Source of the DNA: Bacteroidia bacterium
GTDB taxonomy: Bacteria; Bacteroidota; Bacteroidia; Bacteroidales; UBA12481
Assembly (NCBI GenBank): GCA_026391235.1
Contig: JAPLDV010000421.1
Span: forward strand, 1-8,297
DNA: 8,297 nucleotides
Direction of reading: 5' to 3'
The notes under the pieces are model-generated. The model saw nothing but the letters and a program-made list of their open reading frames with translations, made no database searches and had not been told where the DNA came from. Below, in pieces: positions 1-8,297 of the stretch. The position numbers and the translations under genes were made by a program. Each line of letters starts with the position of its first letter. Positions within the stretch are counted from its first letter, which is position 1.

Positions 1-1258
1 CGCGGGCAAACCCTCCGTGTTCCAGCTTTTTCGTGATATTCTCGAGAACCAAGATGGAGTCGTCGACCACCATCCCGATCGCTATGGAAAGGGAAGAGAG
101 GGTGATGAGGTTGATGGTTCCTCCGGAAAGGTACAAGTAGATGAAACCGACAATCAGTGAGATCGGGATGGAAAGCGAAATAATGAAGGTAGCCCTCCAG
201 CGCCCGAGGAAGAAGAATACCACAATGACAACAAAGATCAGGGCGTAAAGCAGGGTCGTCGCCAGGTTGTTGATCGAAGCCATCGTACTCAGGGAAGAGT
301 CCATCAGGATTTCCACCTTCACATCGGGCGGCAGGGTCTTCTTGATCTGCTCCAGCCTGGCTTTGATCTTATTGGCTACCGTGACCGTATTGGCATCCGA
401 CTGCTTCTGGATCATGATGCGGACGTTCTTGCCTCCATTGGACCGCTCATAGGTTTTGACATCCTTGAGCCCGTCGCGCACGGTGGCGATGTCACTCAGG
501 TAAACCGTCTTTCCGTTGATATTGCTGACGATGATATCCCTCACCTGGTCGCTGCTTTCCCATTCCCCCTGCAGCCGGAGCGGAAGATCGGATTTTCCCA
601 TCTCGAGACTTCCCGAGGGCAGGTTAATGTTGTTGGCCGCCAGTATCCCGGCCAGCTGTTCCACAGTCATGTTGTAGCTGTCGAGCTTGCGCGGGTCGAC
701 ATCCACCATCACCGCCCGGATCGGGGCACCGAGCTCGATAATGTTACCAACCCCATCGATCCGGTTTAGTGGCTGTATCAACCGCTTGTCGAGGATGTCC
801 TTGATGCCGTTGTAGCTCTCGCCGGCAGTAATGGTGAACATGACGACCGGCATCATGCTCGTGCTCATCTTGAAAATCGTGGGTAATTCCACCCCCTCCG
901 GCAAGTTGCGTTCTGCAAGGCCAACCGCATTGCGCACCTCATTCGTCGCTTCGTCCAGGTTGGCCCCCCACTCGAATTCCAAGGTGATCACAGAGATATT
1001 GTCTTTCGATTTGGAACTGATCTTCTTGAGCCCGGTGAGCGAACCAAACCCGTCCTCGAGTTTGCGCGTGACGTTTTGCTCCACATCGGAAGCATTGGCC
1101 CCGGTGTAAAAGGTGAATACAGAAAGGATCGGCGGATCGATCTTGGGAAAGAAATCCACGGGTAACTGCAGATAGGAATAGAGCCCGAAGATCACCACCG
1201 CGATGAAGATCATAATGGTGCTGACGGGCTTCTTTACCGCTGTGCTGAATAAACTCAT
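1..1258 (-). CDS. RND efflux permease, HAE1/AcrB-like (C-terminal part beyond window)
   Basis: Inner-membrane proton-driven pump subunit of a tripartite efflux system. I translated it from the ATG at 1256-1258; the frame stays open to the left edge, giving 419 visible residues of an expected ~1000-1050. Seen: a short cytoplasmic N-terminus and TM1 with the typical KKPVSTIMIF start followed by LPVDFFPKIDPP, then the porter domain (GANASDVEQ, LDEATNEVRNAV, GVGNIIELG, RLQGEWES), then TM2 (NLATTLLYALIFVVIVVFFF), TM3 and TM4. TM4 carries GMVVDDSILVLENI; its Asp399 and Asp400 match the proton-relay pair of AcrB (D407/D408), so the pump looks catalytically intact as far as it can be seen. It starts 4 bp after the adaptor stop, so it is the third gene of the pump operon. 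Substrate cannot be read from sequence; the DD pair favours the HAE1 drug/organic class over heavy-metal pumps. GC is about 55% in a counted sample (61-120), higher than the outer membrane gene of the same operon. Confidence 0.95.
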   Translation of the reverse strand, partial: MSLFSTAVKKPVSTIMIFIAVVIFGLYSYLQLPVDFFPKIDPPILSVFTFYTGANASDVEQNVTRKLEDGFGSLTGLKKISSKSKDNISVITLEFEWGANLDEATNEVRNAVGLAERNLPEGVELPTIFKMSTSMMPVVMFTITAGESYNGIKDILDKRLIQPLNRIDGVGNIIELGAPIRAVMVDVDPRKLDSYNMTVEQLAGILAANNINLPSGSLEMGKSDLPLRLQGEWESSDQVRDIIVSNINGKTVYLSDIATVRDGLKDVKTYERSNGGKNVRIMIQKQSDANTVTVANKIKARLEQIKKTLPPDVKVEILMDSSLSTMASINNLATTLLYALIFVVIVVFFFLGRWRATFIISLSIPISLIVGFIYLYLSGGTINLITLSSLSIAIGMVVDDSILVLENITKKLEHGGFAR

Positions 1259-1262
1259 GATG

Positions 1263-2318
1263 TCAGTTCTTAATGGTTATCGTAGTCTGGTTTTCGAGCT
1301 TGTTCTGCCCGACGACGATCACTTCGTCACCATCGGTAATGCCTTCCAATATCTCAATCCTGTCGTTGATCAGGCGCCCGGTGGTCACCTTTGTCTTGAC
1401 GGCAACTTTGTTCCTGTTCAGGAATACGTACATGTCGTTGGTCCCGGTTTGTTTGATGATGGAAATATTCGGAACCAGTATCGCGCTGCCCTGTCCGAGG
1501 TTGAGCTGTATCATGGCAAACATCCCGGGACGCAGTTTCAATCCCGTGTTCTGAATCCTGAGCTCAACGGTGAAGGTCTTGGTGGCGTTGTCCACGGTCG
1601 GGTAGATCCTGTAAATGTCACCGCTGAAAGCCATATCCGGATAAATTTCAGATTTGACATCGGCTTTCATCCCGGTCTTAACCAATGGGTAGTAATTCGA
1701 GGAAATACTGATAAGTGCCTTAAGCTGATTAATCTGAATGATTGAAAGGATAGCCGGTTTACCGACGGTTACAACCGGGGCGCCGGAATAGATTTCGCCG
1801 TCTTCAAAATACTTACCGGATATTACTCCGCTGAAAGGAGCTTTCAGCTGGGTATTGTCAAGCAGGAACTGATAGCTTGTTTTGGCGATATCGTAGGCCG
1901 ACTTGATCTGGTCATATTGCTGGTCGGCAATGCTGTTTGTTTGCTTCAGGGTCTCCAGTCTTTTGAAATCCGTTTCCAGTTTCATTAAATTAATATGTGC
2001 CTGTTCCAGGTTGGTACGGTCCATGAGTGCCACAACCTGGCCTTTGCTGACATTGCTGCCGATTTCAACATTCATCTTTTCAATCCTGCCGGGAGCTGAA
2101 GGGGCTAAGTGTACTTCTTCAAAAGGAATTAAAGAAGCCGTGAAATCAATATAACGGGTAATCGATTCCGTTTTGACGACCATTGATTTTACGGATACTG
2201 ATTGTTTTATATCAGGCTGTTTCGTTTCAGTATTACTGTCTTTTTTTGCGGTGCAGGCTCCACCTGCGAGTAAGAGTCCCAGAGCAACGGACAAATTCAA
2301 AGCTTTTATTGTATTCAT
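1263..2318 (-). CDS. RND efflux periplasmic adaptor (HlyD/AcrA-type membrane fusion protein)
   Basis: Couples the RND permease to the outer membrane channel. 351 residues, a normal length. Residues 1-22 form a hydrophobic export signal ending LLLAGGAC; Cys22 could be lipidated, but Gly at -3 is a poor lipobox, so this is uncertain. Two lipoyl-like half motifs (about 69-100, APGRIEKMNVEIGSNVSKGQ; and 156-187, LKAPFSGVISGKYFEDGE) flank a short alpha-hairpin (101-155). A beta-barrel follows (190-275) with the conserved LRPGMFA (262-268), then a membrane-proximal domain (278-349). The gene starts 4 bp after the TolC-like stop and ends 4 bp before the permease start, so the three are surely cotranscribed. 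Oddity: base composition switches inside the gene. The part encoding the C-terminus (1321-1380: 31/60 GC; 1561-1620: 32/60) matches the permease, while the part encoding the N-terminus (1681-1740: 22/60; 2101-2160: 23/60) matches the TolC-like gene. Confidence 0.95.
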   Translation of the reverse strand: MNTIKALNLSVALGLLLAGGACTAKKDSNTETKQPDIKQSVSVKSMVVKTESITRYIDFTASLIPFEEVHLAPSAPGRIEKMNVEIGSNVSKGQVVALMDRTNLEQAHINLMKLETDFKRLETLKQTNSIADQQYDQIKSAYDIAKTSYQFLLDNTQLKAPFSGVISGKYFEDGEIYSGAPVVTVGKPAILSIIQINQLKALISISSNYYPLVKTGMKADVKSEIYPDMAFSGDIYRIYPTVDNATKTFTVELRIQNTGLKLRPGMFAMIQLNLGQGSAILVPNISIIKQTGTNDMYVFLNRNKVAVKTKVTTGRLINDRIEILEGITDGDEVIVVGQNKLENQTTITIKN

Positions 2319-2322
2319 TTTA

Positions 2323-3624
2323 TTAAAGTTTACTGTTTATCTTACGTAAGGTCATCTCAGCATTAAGCAATTGAAGTATTAAATTGGTAAAATTTGATTC
2401 TGCCGTTAGGTAGTCGTTATTGGCACTTGTTACTTCGAGGCTTGAAATAATGCCCTGCTGATATTTTAAATTCATTTTATCCAAAACTTCTTTTGCAATT
2501 TCCACAATCGCTTTCTGGGTATCATACAGGACAAGAAGAGTATAGTAGTTATAGCCAAACTGCCTTTCCTGCAAGGTCAGCTGTTGTGTCAGGAGCTCCT
2601 TGGTATTGGTACTTATGTCGCTGTCGATTCTTGCCTGGTTCAGTTGTGCCAGTCTCTGTCCGCCCGAAAGGATCGGAACGTTCAGCGTTAATCCCACGAC
2701 ATTCTTGGGAGTAAAGTCGAAAAGAGGCTTCAGAATCTTATCGGTACGTGAATAATAGGCAGCCAGGGTTGGCAGATAGCTGGACTTCCTCATCTTGATT
2801 GTCTTTTGTGCAATATCGCCCTGCATCGATATCAATTTAAAGTCGATATTATTCTGGATATTGAAAGATTCCGCTAATGACGAATGCAAAATAAACTGCC
2901 TGGAAATATCGTCAAGGTTTGAAGCCAGGGAAATAGCCTGATCTGAATTTAAGCCCAGTTGAAAGCGCAGCAGGTTATACCCAAGTTCGACCTGCCTCTG
3001 CATGGATTTAAGTGCATTATCGACCGATGCAACCATAACGGAAAGCTTTTTCACATCTGTTTGTTCGATGATGCCGGCATTGGCAAGGTTTTTAGTTTTG
3101 TCGTAGATCAGCAGGGCATTCTCCTTATTGGATCTGATGATGACCAGTATCCTTTCACTGGCCAGGATCATGCAATAGGCCTGGATGGTCTGTTCCTTGA
3201 CATTCAGCTCATCCTTCTGATAGCTCTGTTCTGTAATGGTTTTGGCCAGCTTCGAAAGTTCGATGCCAACGAAATAGTTACCGTTAAATACCAGCTGGCT
3301 GACGTTTGCCTTAAAGCTGCTGGTAGGATTAAACTCGATGATAGCTGGCGGTGCTGCAGGGTTTAGCTGCAGTGAGGCTTGAGCTCCCAAAAAATTATTA
3401 TAATCCATGGAGGCATTAATCTGAGGTAACCCTGCCGCAATGGTTTCTCTAAGTTTTTGAGTTGATTTGTCAATTGCAAATTTTGAATTTACCAGGGTTT
3501 TATTGTGACCAATGGCGTAGCTTACGGCACTATCCAGTGACAGGATCAGCGGATCCTGTGCCTGTAAGGATAAAACGGCTAAGCAATAGATACCACTGAC
3601 AATGAACTTATAAATGGTTTTCAT
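2323..3624 (-). CDS. TolC-family outer membrane efflux protein
   Basis: Outer membrane exit duct of the tripartite pump. 433 residues, typical for the family. A Sec signal peptide is visible at residues 1-23 (MKTIYKF, hydrophobic core, LQAQ before Asp24). Two OEP repeats of alpha-helical barrel sequence occupy about 28-215 and 245-430. The second has the usual pattern: LPTLAAYYS, then GLTLNVPILSGGQR, then long helices ending in YQQGIISSLEVTSANNDYL and a C-terminal LLNAEMTLRKINSKL. The N-terminal GLPQINASMDYN is the matching segment of repeat one. It is the first gene of the pump operon, 111 bp downstream of the marR stop. A candidate operator/-7 element lies 41-48 bp upstream of its ATG. Base composition is AT-rich (19/60 GC in 2821-2880), unlike the permease. 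Start chosen because it gives a full signal peptide and lies behind the AT-rich leader. Confidence 0.95.
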   Translation of the reverse strand: MKTIYKFIVSGIYCLAVLSLQAQDPLILSLDSAVSYAIGHNKTLVNSKFAIDKSTQKLRETIAAGLPQINASMDYNNFLGAQASLQLNPAAPPAIIEFNPTSSFKANVSQLVFNGNYFVGIELSKLAKTITEQSYQKDELNVKEQTIQAYCMILASERILVIIRSNKENALLIYDKTKNLANAGIIEQTDVKKLSVMVASVDNALKSMQRQVELGYNLLRFQLGLNSDQAISLASNLDDISRQFILHSSLAESFNIQNNIDFKLISMQGDIAQKTIKMRKSSYLPTLAAYYSRTDKILKPLFDFTPKNVVGLTLNVPILSGGQRLAQLNQARIDSDISTNTKELLTQQLTLQERQFGYNYYTLLVLYDTQKAIVEIAKEVLDKMNLKYQQGIISSLEVTSANNDYLTAESNFTNLILQLLNAEMTLRKINSKL

Positions 3625-3656
3625 TCGATTTAATTTTAATTTTTCTTTGTGTTTAG

Positions 3657-3684
3657 TTTAACTTCAAATTAATCTGAAATTTAA
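3657..3684. promoter_or_regulatory. Palindromic candidate operator upstream of the efflux operon
   Basis: An AT-rich inverted repeat centred between 3670 and 3671. The inner 16 bp (TTCAAATTAATCTGAA, 3663-3678) pair at 7 of 8 positions per arm, the 22-bp form (3660-3681) at 9 of 11, and the 28-bp form at 11 of 14. It lies 33-60 bp upstream of the tolC-like ATG and covers the only -7-like element found there. MarR proteins are dimers that bind palindromes of about this size at target promoters, so this is a natural site for the MarR protein encoded just upstream. Binding is inferred, not shown. Confidence 0.55.
3665..3672 (-). promoter_or_regulatory. Weak -7-like element for the pump operon
   Basis: On the minus strand this reads TTAATTTG, one mismatch from the Bacteroidota -7 consensus TAnnTTTG. 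It sits 40 bp before the pump operon start. No TTG or TTTG was found at the usual 19-21 bp spacing upstream (the nearest, at 3699-3701, is 26 bp away), so the assignment is weak. It lies wholly inside the palindrome at 3657-3684. Confidence 0.35.
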
Positions 3685-3703
3685 AAGGGTTCGGCAGTCA
3701 ATC

Positions 3704-3718
3704 GTTGTTAACGTCAAC
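3704..3718. repeat. GTTG-N7-CAAC inverted repeat, copy 1
   Basis: GTTG at 3704-3707 and CAAC at 3715-3718 with a 7-bp spacer, in the marR to pump gap. The same motif with the same spacer occurs at 4220-4234 over the marR promoter. Arms are only 4 bp, so each copy alone is weak; the shared spacing and the placement at both regulatory regions are what make it noteworthy. Confidence 0.35.
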
Positions 3719-3735
3719 CATGTTTATAAATAAAG

Positions 3736-4179
3736 TTATAGTTTTTCAGCATTGCCTTTTATATGACTTACTACTTTGTGAAAAGTGTCTATTTCCTCCT
3801 GCGTAAGCCCTTGCTGAATGTTCTCCATCAATTCAAACACGATTTTCATATACTGGTCCCTTACACGGTATCCGGCCTTTGTCACCATCAGGTAATTCTT
3901 CCGCCGGTCTTCGATCGCAGAAACCCTCCTGACCAATCCTTTTTCTTCCAATGAATCGATTAGCCTGAGGATGGCTGATTTATCCTTTCCCATCAGTTCC
4001 GCCATATCTTTTTGAATGACATCCTCTTCTTTCAGGGTGATGGCATGTAAGAGGCTGAATTGCTCAGTGGATATCTTGATTTCATCATCTATCTGCTCAT
4101 CGGACCGTTTTTTAAACACACGGAATACCTCATGCATCATTTTTCCCAAATCCATCAACGACAATTTCTGGTTTCCCAT
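3736..4179 (-). CDS. MarR-family transcriptional regulator
   Basis: Cytoplasmic winged-helix dimer that usually represses efflux or stress genes and is released by small ligands. The chosen start (ATG 4177-4179) gives 147 residues, the normal MarR size, beginning MGNQKLSL. A longer in-frame start at 4233 adds 18 residues without family character and lies on top of the predicted promoter, so it is rejected. Seen: N-terminal dimerisation helix (1-30), winged helix from about 40 (QFSLLHAITL), QKDMAELMGKDKSAILRLIDSLEEKGLV as helix-turn-helix (56-83), a wing with the signature DRRKNYLMVT (91-100, Asp91-Arg92-Arg93), and C-terminal dimerisation helices (104-147). It lies immediately upstream of the pump operon on the same strand, separated by 111 bp with no clear terminator, so some readthrough into the pump is possible. 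Its likely targets are its own promoter and that of the pump; the ligand is unknown. Confidence 0.93.
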   Translation of the reverse strand: MGNQKLSLMDLGKMMHEVFRVFKKRSDEQIDDEIKISTEQFSLLHAITLKEEDVIQKDMAELMGKDKSAILRLIDSLEEKGLVRRVSAIEDRRKNYLMVTKAGYRVRDQYMKIVFELMENIQQGLTQEEIDTFHKVVSHIKGNAEKL

Positions 4180-4201
4180 TCTTGTGCAAATTTTAACCGC
4201 G

Positions 4202-4233
4202 CAAAGGTAAAGACAATTAGTTGATCTATGCAA
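4202..4233 (-). promoter_or_regulatory. Bacteroidota-type promoter of marR
   Basis: On the minus strand TACCTTTG (4202-4209) matches the -7 consensus TAnnTTTG exactly, and TTG (4231-4233) lies 21 bp upstream, acceptable for the -33 element. Transcription would start near 4196, leaving a leader of roughly 17 nt before the ATG at 4179. This supports that start over the upstream ATG at 4233. Confidence 0.7.
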
Positions 4234-4234
4234 C
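4220..4234. repeat. GTTG-N7-CAAC inverted repeat, copy 2
   Basis: GTTG at 4220-4223 and CAAC at 4231-4234, a 7-bp spacer as in the copy at 3704-3718. It overlaps the -33 element of the marR promoter, where a bound repressor would block polymerase. The spacer sequences differ, so only the arms and spacing are shared. Possible autoregulatory MarR site; inference only. Confidence 0.35.
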
Positions 4235-4346
4235 GATTTAGAAATATTTTGTTTTCTTCCTTAGGGTCTTGATATGATGTTCAGTTTTTGGCAGTGAAAA
4301 CCGGAATACTCCAAACAGTCAGTTGTTTCTAAAGATTCATGAGCTT

Positions 4347-4369
4347 CCCGATTTCTGTACCTGATCGGG
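4347..4369. repeat. Short inverted repeat in the divergent region
   Basis: CCCGAT (4347-4352) and ATCGGG (4364-4369) form a perfect 6-bp stem around an 11-nt loop, followed on the plus strand by only TTT. Too short for a confident terminator and with no gene ending there; it might be a protein-binding site for the fucosidase promoter about 75 bp downstream. Confidence 0.3.
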
Positions 4370-4443
4370 TTTGAATCCGGAACGCATAAACGCCCGGGTT
4401 GATCTTGCTGATGTTGATCTGATGCTTGTTCCTGTTCTTTAAT

Positions 4444-4451
4444 TATCTTTG
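4444..4451 (+). promoter_or_regulatory. -7 element of the fucosidase promoter
   Basis: TATCTTTG matches the Bacteroidota -7 consensus TAnnTTTG exactly and lies 27 bp before the ATG at 4479, predicting a leader of about 20-25 nt. No TTG at the expected 19-21 bp spacing was found (TTGs at 4426-4428 and 4414-4416 are 15 and 27 bp away), so the promoter may be weak or activator-dependent. Confidence 0.5.
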
Positions 4452-4478
4452 GGTGACTTGAAACCAACGAAATAAAAC

Positions 4479-6188
4479 ATGAAGAATTCACTATCATCAG
4501 TTACTCTAGTGCTGGGATTTCTAATGCTTACAATAACCGGTGCTGCCCAGAAAGCTAACCCGGGGTCCTTGCAAAGCTGGCGCGAATCGCGCTTCGGCAT
4601 GTTCATTCACTGGGGGCCGGTAAGCATCACCGAAAAGGAGATCAGCTGGTCGCGTGCGAATACAAATCCGAAGTGCCCAAACAACGGGGAAACACCGGCT
4701 GATGTATACGACAACCTATACAAGCGATTCAACCCGGTGAACTTCAATGCCGGGGAATGGGTGGCCACTGCAAAGGCTTCCGGGATGAAATACATGATCC
4801 TGACGGCCAGGCACTGCGACGGGTTCCTGCTGTGGGACTCGAAGGTGGACGATTACAACATCATGCATACCCCTTTCAGGCGGGATGCGTGCGCTGAGCT
4901 GGCGAAAGCCGCCCACGAGGCCGGAATGAAGATCGGGTGGTATTTTTCGCCGATGGAGTGGCGCGATCCCGACTGCCGCAACGAAAAGAACGGGGAATTT
5001 GTAAAGCGCATGCAGGCCGAACTGAGGGAATTGCTGACCAATTACGGAAAGATTGATATCCTCTGGTTCGATACCGATGGCAAGGAGGCTCCCTGGGACC
5101 AGGAAACCACCTATAAGCTAGTGCGGCAGCTGCAGCCGGATATCGTCATCAATGAGCGTCTCGACTTAGGTGATCAGGGCGGCTGGAACGAGGGTGTCAT
5201 CGGCCCGAACGCCGACTTCCACACGCCGGAGCAAACGGTCGGTAAATTCGACCAGCGCCCATGGGAATCGTGCATGACCGTTTCAAAAAAAAGCCAGTGG
5301 TCGTGGGGCGGCCATTCCGACGGGGTGAAGCCGGCCGGTCAGTGCCTCGACATGCTGATCCGGTGCGCGGGGGGTGATGGCAACATGCTGCTGAACGTGG
5401 GCCCGATGCCGGACGGGGCGATCGCACCGGAGCAGGTGGCGGTGATCAGGGAAATGGGTGAATGGCTGGCCAGGAACGGCACCAGCATTTACGGCACCCG
5501 CGGCGGACCGTGGAAACCGGGCAGGTCCGGCGTGTCCACCTGCCGGGGCAACACGGTTTACCTGCATGTTCTCGGCCGGTCCGGCAATACGCTGGAATTG
5601 CCTGCCATTCCTGCGAAAATTATCCGGTCAACGCTCCTGGCCGGCGGTAAGGTCAAGGTCGTTCAAACGGACAAGAACATTTCAATTGCACTTCCACCGG
5701 CAGGGCCGGAAGTGAAGGACCTGATCGTCGTGCTGGAACTGGATCGCCCGGCCGGCAGTATCGAACCGGTGAACATGAATCTTCCGTCGCTGTCGCTCAC
5801 CGCCGGGAAAAAGGCCACTGCCTCGAATGTATACCAGGGAATGGCTGCCTATGCCGCCGGCCAGGCATGCGATGATGACGAAACCACCCGCTGGGCCACG
5901 GATAACGGAACTAAAGCTGCATGGCTGGAGGTGGACCTGGGATCGGCGAAAACCATCGGCCGCGCGCTCATCAGGCAGGCTTACCCCGAACTCAAACGGA
6001 TCCGGAAATTCTCGGTTGAATACTGGCAGGATAACCAGTGGAAGACCTGCTATGCCGGCGAAAATTTAGGTGAAGTGCTGGATGTGAAGTTTAACCCGGT
6101 CACCGCACAGCGGGTTCGGCTGAATATAACCGAAGCCACCGAAGGCCCGACCATCTGGGAGTTCCAGGTATTTTCGACAGCCAGGTAG
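4479..6188 (+). CDS. Secreted alpha-L-fucosidase, GH29, with C-terminal F5/8 type C (CBM32-like) domain
   Basis: Retaining glycosidase that releases terminal L-fucose from glycans. 569 residues. A signal peptide is visible (about 1-24, MKNSLSSV, hydrophobic core, ITGAAQ), so it acts in the periplasm or at the cell surface. The GH29 barrel (about 28-340) shows FGMFIHWGP (His44), TARHCDGFLLWDSK (111-122), WYFSPMEW, and ILWFDTDG, whose Asp198 fits the catalytic nucleophile. Acid/base candidates are Glu251 (TPEQ) and Glu263 (RPWESC), not decidable by eye. GGDGNMLLNVGPMPDG (298-313) and ARNGTSIYGTRGGPW close the domain. A beta-sandwich (about 345-425) follows, then an F5/8 type C fold (about 437-567: DDDETTRWATDNG, WLEVDLGSAKTIGRALI, FSVEYW, RVRLNI, EFQVF), usually glycan-binding. 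Oddities: the usual HHDGF is HCDGF and the usual WFDG is WFDTDG. GC-rich (38/60 in 5341-5400). No SusC/SusD neighbours. It ends 9 bp from the convergent TIR gene. Confidence 0.93.
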   Translation: MKNSLSSVTLVLGFLMLTITGAAQKANPGSLQSWRESRFGMFIHWGPVSITEKEISWSRANTNPKCPNNGETPADVYDNLYKRFNPVNFNAGEWVATAKASGMKYMILTARHCDGFLLWDSKVDDYNIMHTPFRRDACAELAKAAHEAGMKIGWYFSPMEWRDPDCRNEKNGEFVKRMQAELRELLTNYGKIDILWFDTDGKEAPWDQETTYKLVRQLQPDIVINERLDLGDQGGWNEGVIGPNADFHTPEQTVGKFDQRPWESCMTVSKKSQWSWGGHSDGVKPAGQCLDMLIRCAGGDGNMLLNVGPMPDGAIAPEQVAVIREMGEWLARNGTSIYGTRGGPWKPGRSGVSTCRGNTVYLHVLGRSGNTLELPAIPAKIIRSTLLAGGKVKVVQTDKNISIALPPAGPEVKDLIVVLELDRPAGSIEPVNMNLPSLSLTAGKKATASNVYQGMAAYAAGQACDDDETTRWATDNGTKAAWLEVDLGSAKTIGRALIRQAYPELKRIRKFSVEYWQDNQWKTCYAGENLGEVLDVKFNPVTAQRVRLNITEATEGPTIWEFQVFSTAR

Positions 6189-6197
6189 GGTCCGGCG

Positions 6198-8297
6198 CTA
6201 ATTCTTTTTCTGGTTGGCAATAGCCCTGTCAACTTCCAGGATGAGCTGATTGATCTCGTCAGCCAAAGATTTTTCAGTATTTGGTTGTATCAATTCCTGA
6301 CATTTTTTCAGGGCATTCCGTGCTTCCGTATATTTCCCCTGGTGATAAAGCCCGACTGCTTTGGTTTGCCAAAGGTCGGGGTCACGGGGACTTAGCTCCA
6401 GCGCTCTATTGATGTATTTAATCCCATCCTCCAAATGGATGTTTTTATCAAACAGGAACCATGCGAATACATTAAGCCAATCAATTTTATCAGGTTTCAG
6501 TGTAAGCCCCTTTTGTGCATAATTTATGGCCTGATCAGTCATGTTCATGTCACGGTAAGTCGCAGCAACATCCATATAATCTGATGCTTCGTCCTTTGAT
6601 TCTTTGGGAATTCTCAAGATGAACTTCTCCAGGTATTCCTTCCCTTTTGCAGTATCACCCATTGCTAAATACAGGTTGGCCTGTCTAATATTAATGCGAT
6701 GAAATCCGGGAAAATCCATCTCTGCTTTTTCATATATATCCTTTTCGTTCTGATAATCTTGAGTTGTATGGTACAAGGATCCGAGATACATGTAAAATAT
6801 GGGTGTTCCGGGTTTTGAATTCCATTTCTTATAGATATTCAGAGTTTCCTTCAATTCAGGGATCGCCTTTGGATACTTTTCCATCCTCGAGTAGGCATCG
6901 CCTAAAAAGAAATGCACACTGGGCAATTGATCGTTGATCTGGTTCATGAATTTCAAGCATTCAATTTCCTTCTCCGGTGTTTTATTGCACCTGGCGTTTA
7001 ACCATTCGATCCAGTATTTTTCCTGCACGGATAGCTTTTGGTCCTTTTTCCCGTAAATCCTGGCACAGCATTCTCTTGCTTTCTCAACCATATTATTTGC
7101 CAGATAGTAATAAGAAAGGAATACATGCGCGAATACATAATTCGAGTCAGCGATCAAAGCTTCAGCGAACCAATTGATGGCTGTTTGATAATCATATTGA
7201 TACCCGGCTTCAAATCCTTTGATTAAATCAGTGTAGGCATCGGATGAAGTTGTGGTAGCAAAGGCCCTGAAATCGGGAGTCACGTCCTTTTTCAAAACGG
7301 ATATGATCAGGTAATCCCTCACCAGTTTTGAGAGCGAATCTGTTTTTGTCCAGATATCCTTGCCTGGGGATGCCGTAGCTACCCTGAAAACGGTTAAAAC
7401 TTTTTCTGTGGCGGCAGCATCGATCAACCGGGCATACAAACAAAGTGTGTCGCCTTCCTGTTTTATGCTACCCGCTACAAAGATTCTGGCAATCCCGCTA
7501 TTGACCTGTTCCGCTGCCCTTACTTCCAGTTCTTCCGTTGTTCTTAACCAACCGGTTATTTTATCCGGAATGTCTTTCTTCAGTTTATTCCAGGTCGAAT
7601 CATTGGTCGAGTTCTGAAACGGCAGGACAGCGACAGAACAGGCTGCTGAAGTCTGCGTTTTCCCGAGGGTGCCTGGCTTGAACAGCTTCGGATAGACAAG
7701 AATCGCAGCAATTACGGCAAAAACACCAATTGCTGCTGCCCAAATCCACGGTTTTCGCCACAAACCGAAGGCCAGTTTCTTTACCCTTTCTTCACGTTCT
7801 TCACGTTCTTCACGTTCTTCACGTTTCTTCACGAATGTATCATCCCCGAAACGCTCCCCGGCTGGAATCTTTTCCTTCTCCCCAACAGCCGATCCCATCT
7901 TTAACCCGTTGATGATCTCTTTAACGGCATTGGCCACCTTGTTGATCTGATCCCGGTAAACCAGCTGCTGGCCGGTTTTGGCCAGGTCATCGTCCCGCAT
8001 CCGCAACGGGCGGTTGACCCCCTGGGAATGATATATAAAATCCACCGGCCGGATGAACCCGAGGTAGCTTTCAGCCAGTTTGATGTCTTCGGGTTCAAGA
8101 TGGTGGATCCTCACCGGCAATACCCGGGAAGCCACGTTCCCGCCGGGCAGTTTCACCTTCAGCCCGAAACGGTCGTGTGAGGCCTGTTCGATAAAAGCGA
8201 TGAACTCATGCTCCCATGCATAGCTCTTTGGATCGCAATAGGTTCGTGAAACGATCGGGATGAAAACCAGCGCCTTCAGCTTCTCTTTCAGGGATTC
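6198..8297 (-). CDS. TIR-transmembrane-TolB_N/FlgO-like-TPR protein (N-terminus beyond window)
   Basis: 699 codons are visible, open to the right edge; there is no in-frame ATG in the first 47 codons and the frame is TIR-like up to the edge, so the true start lies outside. Visible residues 1-133 are the C-terminal half of a TIR domain: ALVFIPIVSRTYCDPKSY, AWEHEF with Glu31 in the W-x-x-E position of the TIR catalytic glutamate, LPVRIHHLEPEDIK, and YRDQINKVANAVKEIINGLK. A charged linker (159-171, repeated REE) leads to one membrane helix (about 183-203). Next is a degenerate TolB-N/FlgO-like domain (about 221-315: SVAVLPFQNST, IFVAGSIKQEGDTLCLYARL), as found in TPR-bearing adenylate cyclases, then some 7-8 TPR units (about 352-690). 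Positive residues before the helix predict TIR in the cytoplasm and TPR in the periplasm. Bacterial TIR domains often cleave NAD+; activity here is inferred. GC falls from 55-63% in the TIR part to 32-38% in the TPR part. No known partner gene (ThsA, CBASS cyclase) is in the window. Confidence 0.85.
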   Translation of the reverse strand, partial: ESLKEKLKALVFIPIVSRTYCDPKSYAWEHEFIAFIEQASHDRFGLKVKLPGGNVASRVLPVRIHHLEPEDIKLAESYLGFIRPVDFIYHSQGVNRPLRMRDDDLAKTGQQLVYRDQINKVANAVKEIINGLKMGSAVGEKEKIPAGERFGDDTFVKKREEREEREEREERVKKLAFGLWRKPWIWAAAIGVFAVIAAILVYPKLFKPGTLGKTQTSAACSVAVLPFQNSTNDSTWNKLKKDIPDKITGWLRTTEELEVRAAEQVNSGIARIFVAGSIKQEGDTLCLYARLIDAAATEKVLTVFRVATASPGKDIWTKTDSLSKLVRDYLIISVLKKDVTPDFRAFATTTSSDAYTDLIKGFEAGYQYDYQTAINWFAEALIADSNYVFAHVFLSYYYLANNMVEKARECCARIYGKKDQKLSVQEKYWIEWLNARCNKTPEKEIECLKFMNQINDQLPSVHFFLGDAYSRMEKYPKAIPELKETLNIYKKWNSKPGTPIFYMYLGSLYHTTQDYQNEKDIYEKAEMDFPGFHRINIRQANLYLAMGDTAKGKEYLEKFILRIPKESKDEASDYMDVAATYRDMNMTDQAINYAQKGLTLKPDKIDWLNVFAWFLFDKNIHLEDGIKYINRALELSPRDPDLWQTKAVGLYHQGKYTEARNALKKCQELIQPNTEKSLADEINQLILEVDRAIANQKKN
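7791..7826. repeat. 9-bp tandem repeat inside the TIR-TPR gene
   Basis: Three exact copies of TTCACGTTC (7791-7817) plus a fourth with one mismatch (7818-7826), then a partial unit. On the coding minus strand it encodes the repeating Arg-Glu-Glu linker (visible residues 159-171) just before the membrane helix. Because the unit is 9 bp, gain or loss of copies would change the linker by three residues without breaking the frame. Confidence 0.9.

Follow-up and report, generated by a model that had tools for sequence, protein, structure and literature searches.

A TIR gene at the end of the window

The DNA analysed here (the window) is an 8,297-nucleotide stretch, positions 1–8,297 of the forward strand of contig JAPLDV010000421.1, from the assembly GCA_026391235.1 of a Bacteroidia bacterium. 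Its minus strand carries, at 8297–6198, an open frame of 699 codons and a stop codon, which continues past the window end and encodes part of a TIR domain, a predicted transmembrane (TM) helix, and a sensor half composed of a TolB_N/CsgG-like domain and tetratricopeptide repeats (TPRs). With a confidence just short of even, we interpret the product as a single-pass inner-membrane TIR receptor of a Bacteroidota family that would signal via an NAD+-derived product. The gene start lies beyond the window edge, and about 65 N-terminal codons are missing from the open reading frame (ORF) in comparison with complete relatives such as P0001 (777 amino acids, aa). The gene has the following parts:

6198–8297, minus strand: incomplete TIR–TM–TolB_N/CsgG-like–TPR gene; open frame, relatives start upstream
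7878–8297, minus strand: C-terminal two thirds of the TIR region (ORF residues 1–140), from alignment with complete TIR domains
8205–8207, minus strand: codon of the putative catalytic Glu (ORF residue 31; Glu96 of P0001), from the alignment of 132 sequences
7788–7833, minus strand: 9-bp in-frame tandem repeat TTCTTCACG, five copies (Tandem Repeats Finder, score 83)
7692–7748, minus strand: single predicted membrane helix (ORF residues 184–202; Kyte-Doolittle 19-residue mean 2.34)
7290–7643, minus strand: TolB_N/CsgG/FlgO-like alpha/beta domain, with bounds mapped from residues 280–420 of P0001 and 24 residues shorter here
6201–7289, minus strand: TPR solenoid (Pfam TPR_2, 4.4e-18)

The 9-bp repeat codes for a Glu/Arg-rich linker ahead of the membrane helix. 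The Pfam search of the window ORF identified TPRs only, with no TIR or TolB_N match at E ≤ 1, and the names of these two domains rest on the complete relatives. Homologues of the window protein number 2634 at E ≤ 0.001 among 7997 candidates scored (best E = 3.9e-184), and the family likeness, as judged from sequence, is far beyond chance. The closest relative among the matches listed is P0001, with 47% identity across the whole query. The named source organisms of the relatives are Bacteroidota or Bacteroidales, and two named loci are from a Bacteroidetes metagenome-assembled genome (MAG). The working set of 132 sequences comprises the window ORF, the best 120 of the 2634 homologues, and 11 genes from genomes.

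The TIR domain and its glutamate

The C-terminal TIR piece in the window reads IPIVSRTYCDPKSYAWEHEF. Complete relatives, which are about 770 aa long, provide the TIR strands missing from the window ORF. With its N-terminus, MASLIPGFEYDIFISYRQKDN, P0001 fills in the first strands and the region of the BB-loop, so that the missing half of the domain predicted in the initial annotation is present in complete relatives. The relatives, which read YDIFISYRQKDN, have a box-1-like first strand (YDIFISYR). The identification as TIR, first made from the window alone, is borne out by Pfam TIR_2, which matches 17 of the 19 TIR regions searched in isolation (E ≤ 1; best 2.6e-4), and by hhalign of the family profile to six canonical TIRs from related genomes, which gave 90%. 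In a PDB search with the profile of the 19 TIRs, the top chain is the plant TIR L6 (E = 0.03). The TIR_2 match of P0001 has an E-value of 0.11, under the Pfam cut-off, and that of the soluble relative from L086 is just above it (29.0 vs 28 bits).

Glu96 of P0001, which corresponds to window residue 31, is Glu in all 132 aligned sequences and in the 19 isolated TIRs, and Trp93, three residues ahead, is Trp in 131 of the 132. The conservation expected for residue 31 is therefore complete. In the hhalign alignment, the family Glu sits opposite a Glu held by five of the six canonical TIRs. A conserved Glu of this type is a feature of NADase TIRs, and the family TIR may cleave NAD+.

The AlphaFold2 model of P0001 has a mean pLDDT of 83 and a pTM of 0.63, with the linker and the helix flanks below 50. 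The TIR region is formed of alternating strands and helices, with strands at 10–17, 48–53, and 74–81 and helices in between, and is followed by one helix at 247–261, an alpha/beta domain at approximately 281–420, and about nine TPR-like hairpins. In fold searches with the model, the PDB rows shown are TPR-type proteins and the BFVD matches are mostly repeat proteins; because TPR matches filled the lists, no match to a solved TIR could be read from them.

Membrane helix and sensor half

A membrane segment was defined as a 19-residue window with a Kyte-Doolittle mean of at least 1.6. Exactly one such segment is present in 118 of the 132 sequences, and one sequence (L085) has three. In the window ORF, the segment is preceded by KK and RK, which agrees with the single helix behind basic residues described previously. 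Among the 118 single-helix sequences, lysines and arginines are more numerous on the N side in 88, equal in 17, and fewer in 13, and this charge balance favours the placement of the TIR inside and the sensor outside.

After the membrane helix, P0001 has a CsgG match above the Pfam cut-off (7.7e-6), followed by TPRs, and L053 has a TolB_N match under the cut-off (0.0013). The relatives thus support the FlgO/TolB-N-like domain that had been read from the window, which itself has no such match. The TPRs of the initial annotation also stand, whereas their number, given as seven or eight, differs from the hairpin count of the P0001 model. The CsgG, TolB_N, and FlgO families are periplasmic or outer-membrane proteins. 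Past the helix, 27 non-redundant members have a 2.5-fold excess of the motif D[ST][AILMTV], which we take to be the site of Bacteroides O-glycosylation, and three TM-less members have no such excess; since most of the enrichment falls in four conserved columns, it counts as weak evidence. The content of Cys, 0.51% after the helix in the 27 TM members versus 0.69% in the three TM-less ones, gives no clear answer.

Two TM-less family members, L083:14387–16963 and L087:6102–8693, have a C-terminal HD phosphohydrolase-type domain, from which it appears that the sensor module can also be cytoplasmic. Therefore, the cytoplasmic TIR of the initial annotation is favoured by charge, whereas its assumption that the sensor must be outside is weakened. 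The protein could be a membrane-tethered intracellular sensor, the TolB_N/TPR half of which would be cytoplasmic, with the helix inserted otherwise or peripheral, and would sense a signal from within the cell, for example a phage protein. Besides the TM-less relatives and the cysteines of the window copy, this unlikely arrangement is supported by a TIR-TPR protein without a hydrophobic segment that lies beside RyR and SLOG genes in G186, by L112 of G007, which is similar to it by eye and near a RyR gene, and by bacterial TIR-TPR proteins being a known class, as described in part of PMC7075850. It is opposed by the single helix with N-inside charge balance and the odd helix number of the three-helix member, by the location of CsgG, TolB_N, and FlgO proteins, and by the motif enrichment, subject to the four columns mentioned above.

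Separate histories of the TIR and sensor halves

Two paralogues of the MAG G001 share 97–100% of TIR residues vs 40–59% of sensor residues. At fourfold sites, the same two genes are identical at 51 of 63 positions in the TIR vs 49 of 92 in the TolB_N plus TPR part (Fisher p = 0.0006). The TIR of L053, the third gene of G001, is more distant (76–83% to one of the two). Two genes of G001 have an identical 109-nt TIR segment, and four contig ends of this genome fall in the TIR segment, overlapping exactly over 109 nt in each of the four pairings; therefore, the copies could not be resolved by the assembler. The end of the window falls in this part of the gene too, and the break there probably has the same cause.

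A 101,354-bp contig is listed for both P0001 and P0002, whose TIRs are 93% identical and whose sensors are 38% identical. Across 131 sequences, identity in the TIR (66–205) does not correlate with identity in the sensor (280–777) when measured against the window protein (Spearman 0.06) or P0001 (0.02), and does so weakly against P0002 (0.20, p = 0.02). Trees of the two halves were built from 25 chosen sequences. In the TIR tree, the window protein, P0001, P0002, P0003, P0005, P0009, P0010, and L053 form one clade (ultrafast bootstrap 93), whereas in the sensor tree P0001 groups with P0054 (92) and L053 is an outlier. The TIR and sensor data each reject the other's tree (AU 4e-52 and 7e-5), and some groupings, for example P0009 with P0010, agree in both. 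The TIR half tracks lineage, and the sensor half, which is old and divergent, tracks paralogue type. Within-lineage gene conversion and repeated domain exchange are both compatible with the tree conflict. The lineage-wise likeness of the TIRs and the diversity of the sensors suggest several receptors feeding one signalling assembly.

Genomic neighbourhoods of the family

Genomes were searched for the TIR in overlapping draws from the order (295), class (395), and phylum (395) of G001, with matches in 8, 6, and 8 genomes, respectively; a full-length search covered 12 genomes of its family. Neighbours were counted for 16 family genes in nine genomes: three in G001 (two split over contigs), three in G007 (of which a contig end truncates one and another is a broken remnant), two each in G163 (one with a stop), G250, and G514, and one each in G010, G256, G317, and G457. 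Short fragments in G163 and G514 were left out, and weak matches in G202, G294, and G761 are outside the count. The helix was looked for in 11 of the 16 genes and is absent in three (the second copy of G250, one of G514, and that of G457).

A SLOG-DUF4231 gene, which encodes a YpsA-type SLOG membrane protein, adjoins two family genes in G001:C141, the gene of G010, and the G007 remnant. In G001:C141, the order on one strand, with short gaps, is SIR2-like/TIR, nSTAND1-WD40, TIR-TM-TPR, SLOG-DUF4231, and the next TIR gene. The first gene of this cluster (L053:8507–9901, minus strand) combines a SIR2-like domain, just under the cut-off, and a TIR in one protein. The SLOG Rossmann-like fold is present in the partner protein. 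DUF4231 is above the cut-off in the L053 and L059 partners (27.9 and 27.6 vs 24.7 bits) and under it in the L058 partner (18.3), and a more distant partner relative beside a TIR gene has a SLATT_1 match (6e-6). The three SLOG partners scanned have no SIR2 or macro match and have DUF4231 instead, a composition other than that of the ThsB/ThsA pair of Thoeris.

Among the 295 genomes surveyed for the order, 3 have a strong SLOG-DUF4231 homologue (E < 1e-100) and 5 a strong TIR gene (E ≤ 1e-63), with weaker TIR matches in 3 more. Two genomes are shared (hypergeometric 7e-4); since the two are of one family, the co-occurrence is indicative only. Some TIR and SLOG matches have contigs of the same length (4788 and 21162 bp), which hints at additional pairs outside the present counts. 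A divergent TIR/DUF4062-nSTAND1 operon lies beside two of the 16 genes (G317 and the TM-less gene of G457), and a TrkA-RyR gene precedes one (G250), which brings the genes with a conflict-type neighbour to 7 of 16. The earlier statement that the layout matches no nameable defence system is true for the single protein, but some relatives adjoin SLOG-DUF4231, nSTAND1, DUF4062, and RyR genes.

We discarded the idea that FISUMP (Fib_succ_major) genes near several copies encode ligands; with 53 matches in G001, such adjacency is expected by chance. One scan of viral contigs for close-relative patterns found no relative of P0001.

TIR/DUF4062-nSTAND1 operons and other TIR loci

The recurrent operon encodes a TIR/DUF4062 protein of about 535 aa and two large nSTAND1-type proteins (L084:12109–17821, similar in L086 to L091). 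Pfam was run on two operon proteins, the TIR/DUF4062 protein and the first nSTAND1 protein (G317; L086), and the remaining proteins were assigned from their size, order, and first residues. On this basis, operons without a directly adjacent family gene are present in G514, G776, G956, G941 (cut), and G369, and less complete ones in G329 and G058. The operon looks like a conflict system. Its TIR is related to that of the family and has 50–54% identity to L053 in five cases and 29–39% in three more distant ones; unlike the family members, the TIR/DUF4062 protein is soluble, with a second TIR-like domain and no TM segment or TPRs. Swarozyc, as described in part of PMC13174449, is the comparison for DUF4062.

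The receptor TIR might act as a scaffold only, seeding a non-enzymatic assembly with the TIR/DUF4062 protein as in Toll-like receptors. The five closer operon TIRs, the divergent family genes in G317 and G457, and the within-lineage TIR likeness, which fits selection for co-assembly, speak for such a role. We nevertheless consider it improbable: a pure scaffold would not need the Glu that is invariant in the family, and the SLOG partners suggest a nucleotide product.

In G007:C113, near L112 and the RyR gene, L115 encodes a TIR protein with one hydrophobic segment and a C-terminal half that is MORN-like by eye.

Comparison with known systems

The family resembles animal Toll-like receptors in its layout of a single span, a cytoplasmic TIR, and a repeat-solenoid sensor half, in the predicted orientation. 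It differs from them in that the TIR comes first (the opposite chain order), TPRs and a TolB_N-like domain replace the leucine-rich repeats, the catalytic-type Glu is invariant, and no adaptor pathway is seen; homology is claimed for the TIR fold only. As in Thoeris, in which the TIR protein ThsB is accompanied by a SIR2-SLOG or TM-macro ThsA, a TIR gene lies beside a gene for a SLOG domain or a product-reading membrane effector. In contrast to Thoeris, the family TIR is membrane-bound with a sensor of its own, and the SLOG domain is fused to DUF4231/2TM rather than to SIR2. The PADLOC match to ThsB is weak (E = 0.0018) and occurs in one relative.

In the genomes examined, TIR genes repeatedly occur with RyR genes and with YpsA-type SLOG genes that have a 2TM part, as in SLOG-SLATT-RyR-TIR conflict neighbourhoods, for which Burroughs et al. 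2015 is reportedly a source. Such neighbourhoods are known from parts of PMC9503650 and PMC7159879. Soluble bacterial TIR-TPR proteins of group 6, as portrayed in part of PMC7075850, have an N-terminal TIR followed by many TPRs, are longer than 700 aa, and are mainly actinobacterial; unlike them, as described there, the family has a membrane helix and a TolB_N-like domain. TIR-TPR proteins, SLOG-SLATT neighbourhoods, and TIR signalling are thus already known kinds. Neither a TM-anchored TIR with a TolB_N-TPR sensor, nor its link to SLOG-DUF4231, nor the conflict between the histories of its halves was found in the open-licence literature searched; relative to that literature, all three are new here.

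Proposed signalling mechanism

The mechanism can be divided into steps, support for which falls in the order of orientation, NAD+ cleavage, shared TIR, effector reading, and outcome. The TIR would lie in the cytoplasm and the sensor outside. Ligand binding would gather the TIRs and switch on NAD+ cleavage by hydrolysis or cyclisation. Paralogues with differing sensors would use one kind of TIR, and could thereby co-assemble or give the same signal. Where a SLOG neighbour is present, its SLOG domain may read an ADP-ribose-type signal and its DUF4231/2TM part may act on the membrane; at other loci, TIR assembly may couple to the TIR/DUF4062-STAND complex. The outcome would be abortive and defence-type.

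None of the four findings named initially as contrary to the annotation (a predicted structure without a TIR fold, no BB-loop and first strands upstream, the TIR outside, a variable Glu31) was seen, with the topology resting on charge and the TIR fold lists filled by TPR matches. Several other observations weigh against the receptor. TIR_2 is under the cut-off or absent in the TM family members scanned with Pfam, and P0001 matches no PADLOC TIR-protein model. A second weak hydrophobic segment occurs at about 391–413 in 10 of the 132 sequences, and the helix is absent in 3 of the 132; these three keep the sensor module, and two of them end in the HD domain. The window sensor half has 7 Cys, unusual for a periplasmic domain, and is the only one of the 132 to lack 24 residues of the alpha/beta domain (P0001 331–354), a deletion which may signal an altered or dead sensor. 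A SLOG neighbour is present in only 4 of the 16 genes, one of them the broken remnant G007:C178, and 9 of the 16 lack all three types of neighbour, in some cases because the contig ends. The downstream neighbour of the window gene is a convergent fucosidase gene, and its upstream side is beyond the window.

The copies without conflict-type neighbours and the position of the window copy among efflux and fucosidase genes would suit an envelope-stress or housekeeping regulator, whose TIR output adjusts cell physiology rather than defends the cell. The patchy presence of the family in the order survey and the seven genes with conflict-type neighbours argue against this role, which we regard as quite unlikely.

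The inner-membrane TIR receptor, if correctly identified, could belong to a surface-facing innate immune receptor repertoire, carried by some Bacteroidota, in which ancient, diverse sensors share one TIR homogenised by gene conversion or domain exchange. All paralogues would thereby co-assemble and produce one and the same NAD+-derived signal, to be read by a SLOG-2TM membrane effector. We hold this extended proposal to be doubtful; if true, it would give bacteria an outside-in equivalent of the Toll-like receptor families. The prokaryotic TIR defences that we know of respond to intracellular cues, and membrane-spanning TIR receptors would mean that bacterial TIR signalling also reads the cell exterior. 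The pattern of one effector and many sensors, with its measurable tree conflict, makes the repertoire hypothesis testable, and the SLOG partner could identify the signal.

Other genes in the window

The minus strand at 1–4233 encodes an RND efflux transporter (cut at the window start), an HlyD-type adaptor, an OEP-type outer-membrane factor, and a MarR regulator, which constitute an ordinary efflux operon. The plus strand at 4479–6188 encodes an alpha-L-fucosidase with an F5/8 type C domain, convergent with the TIR gene.
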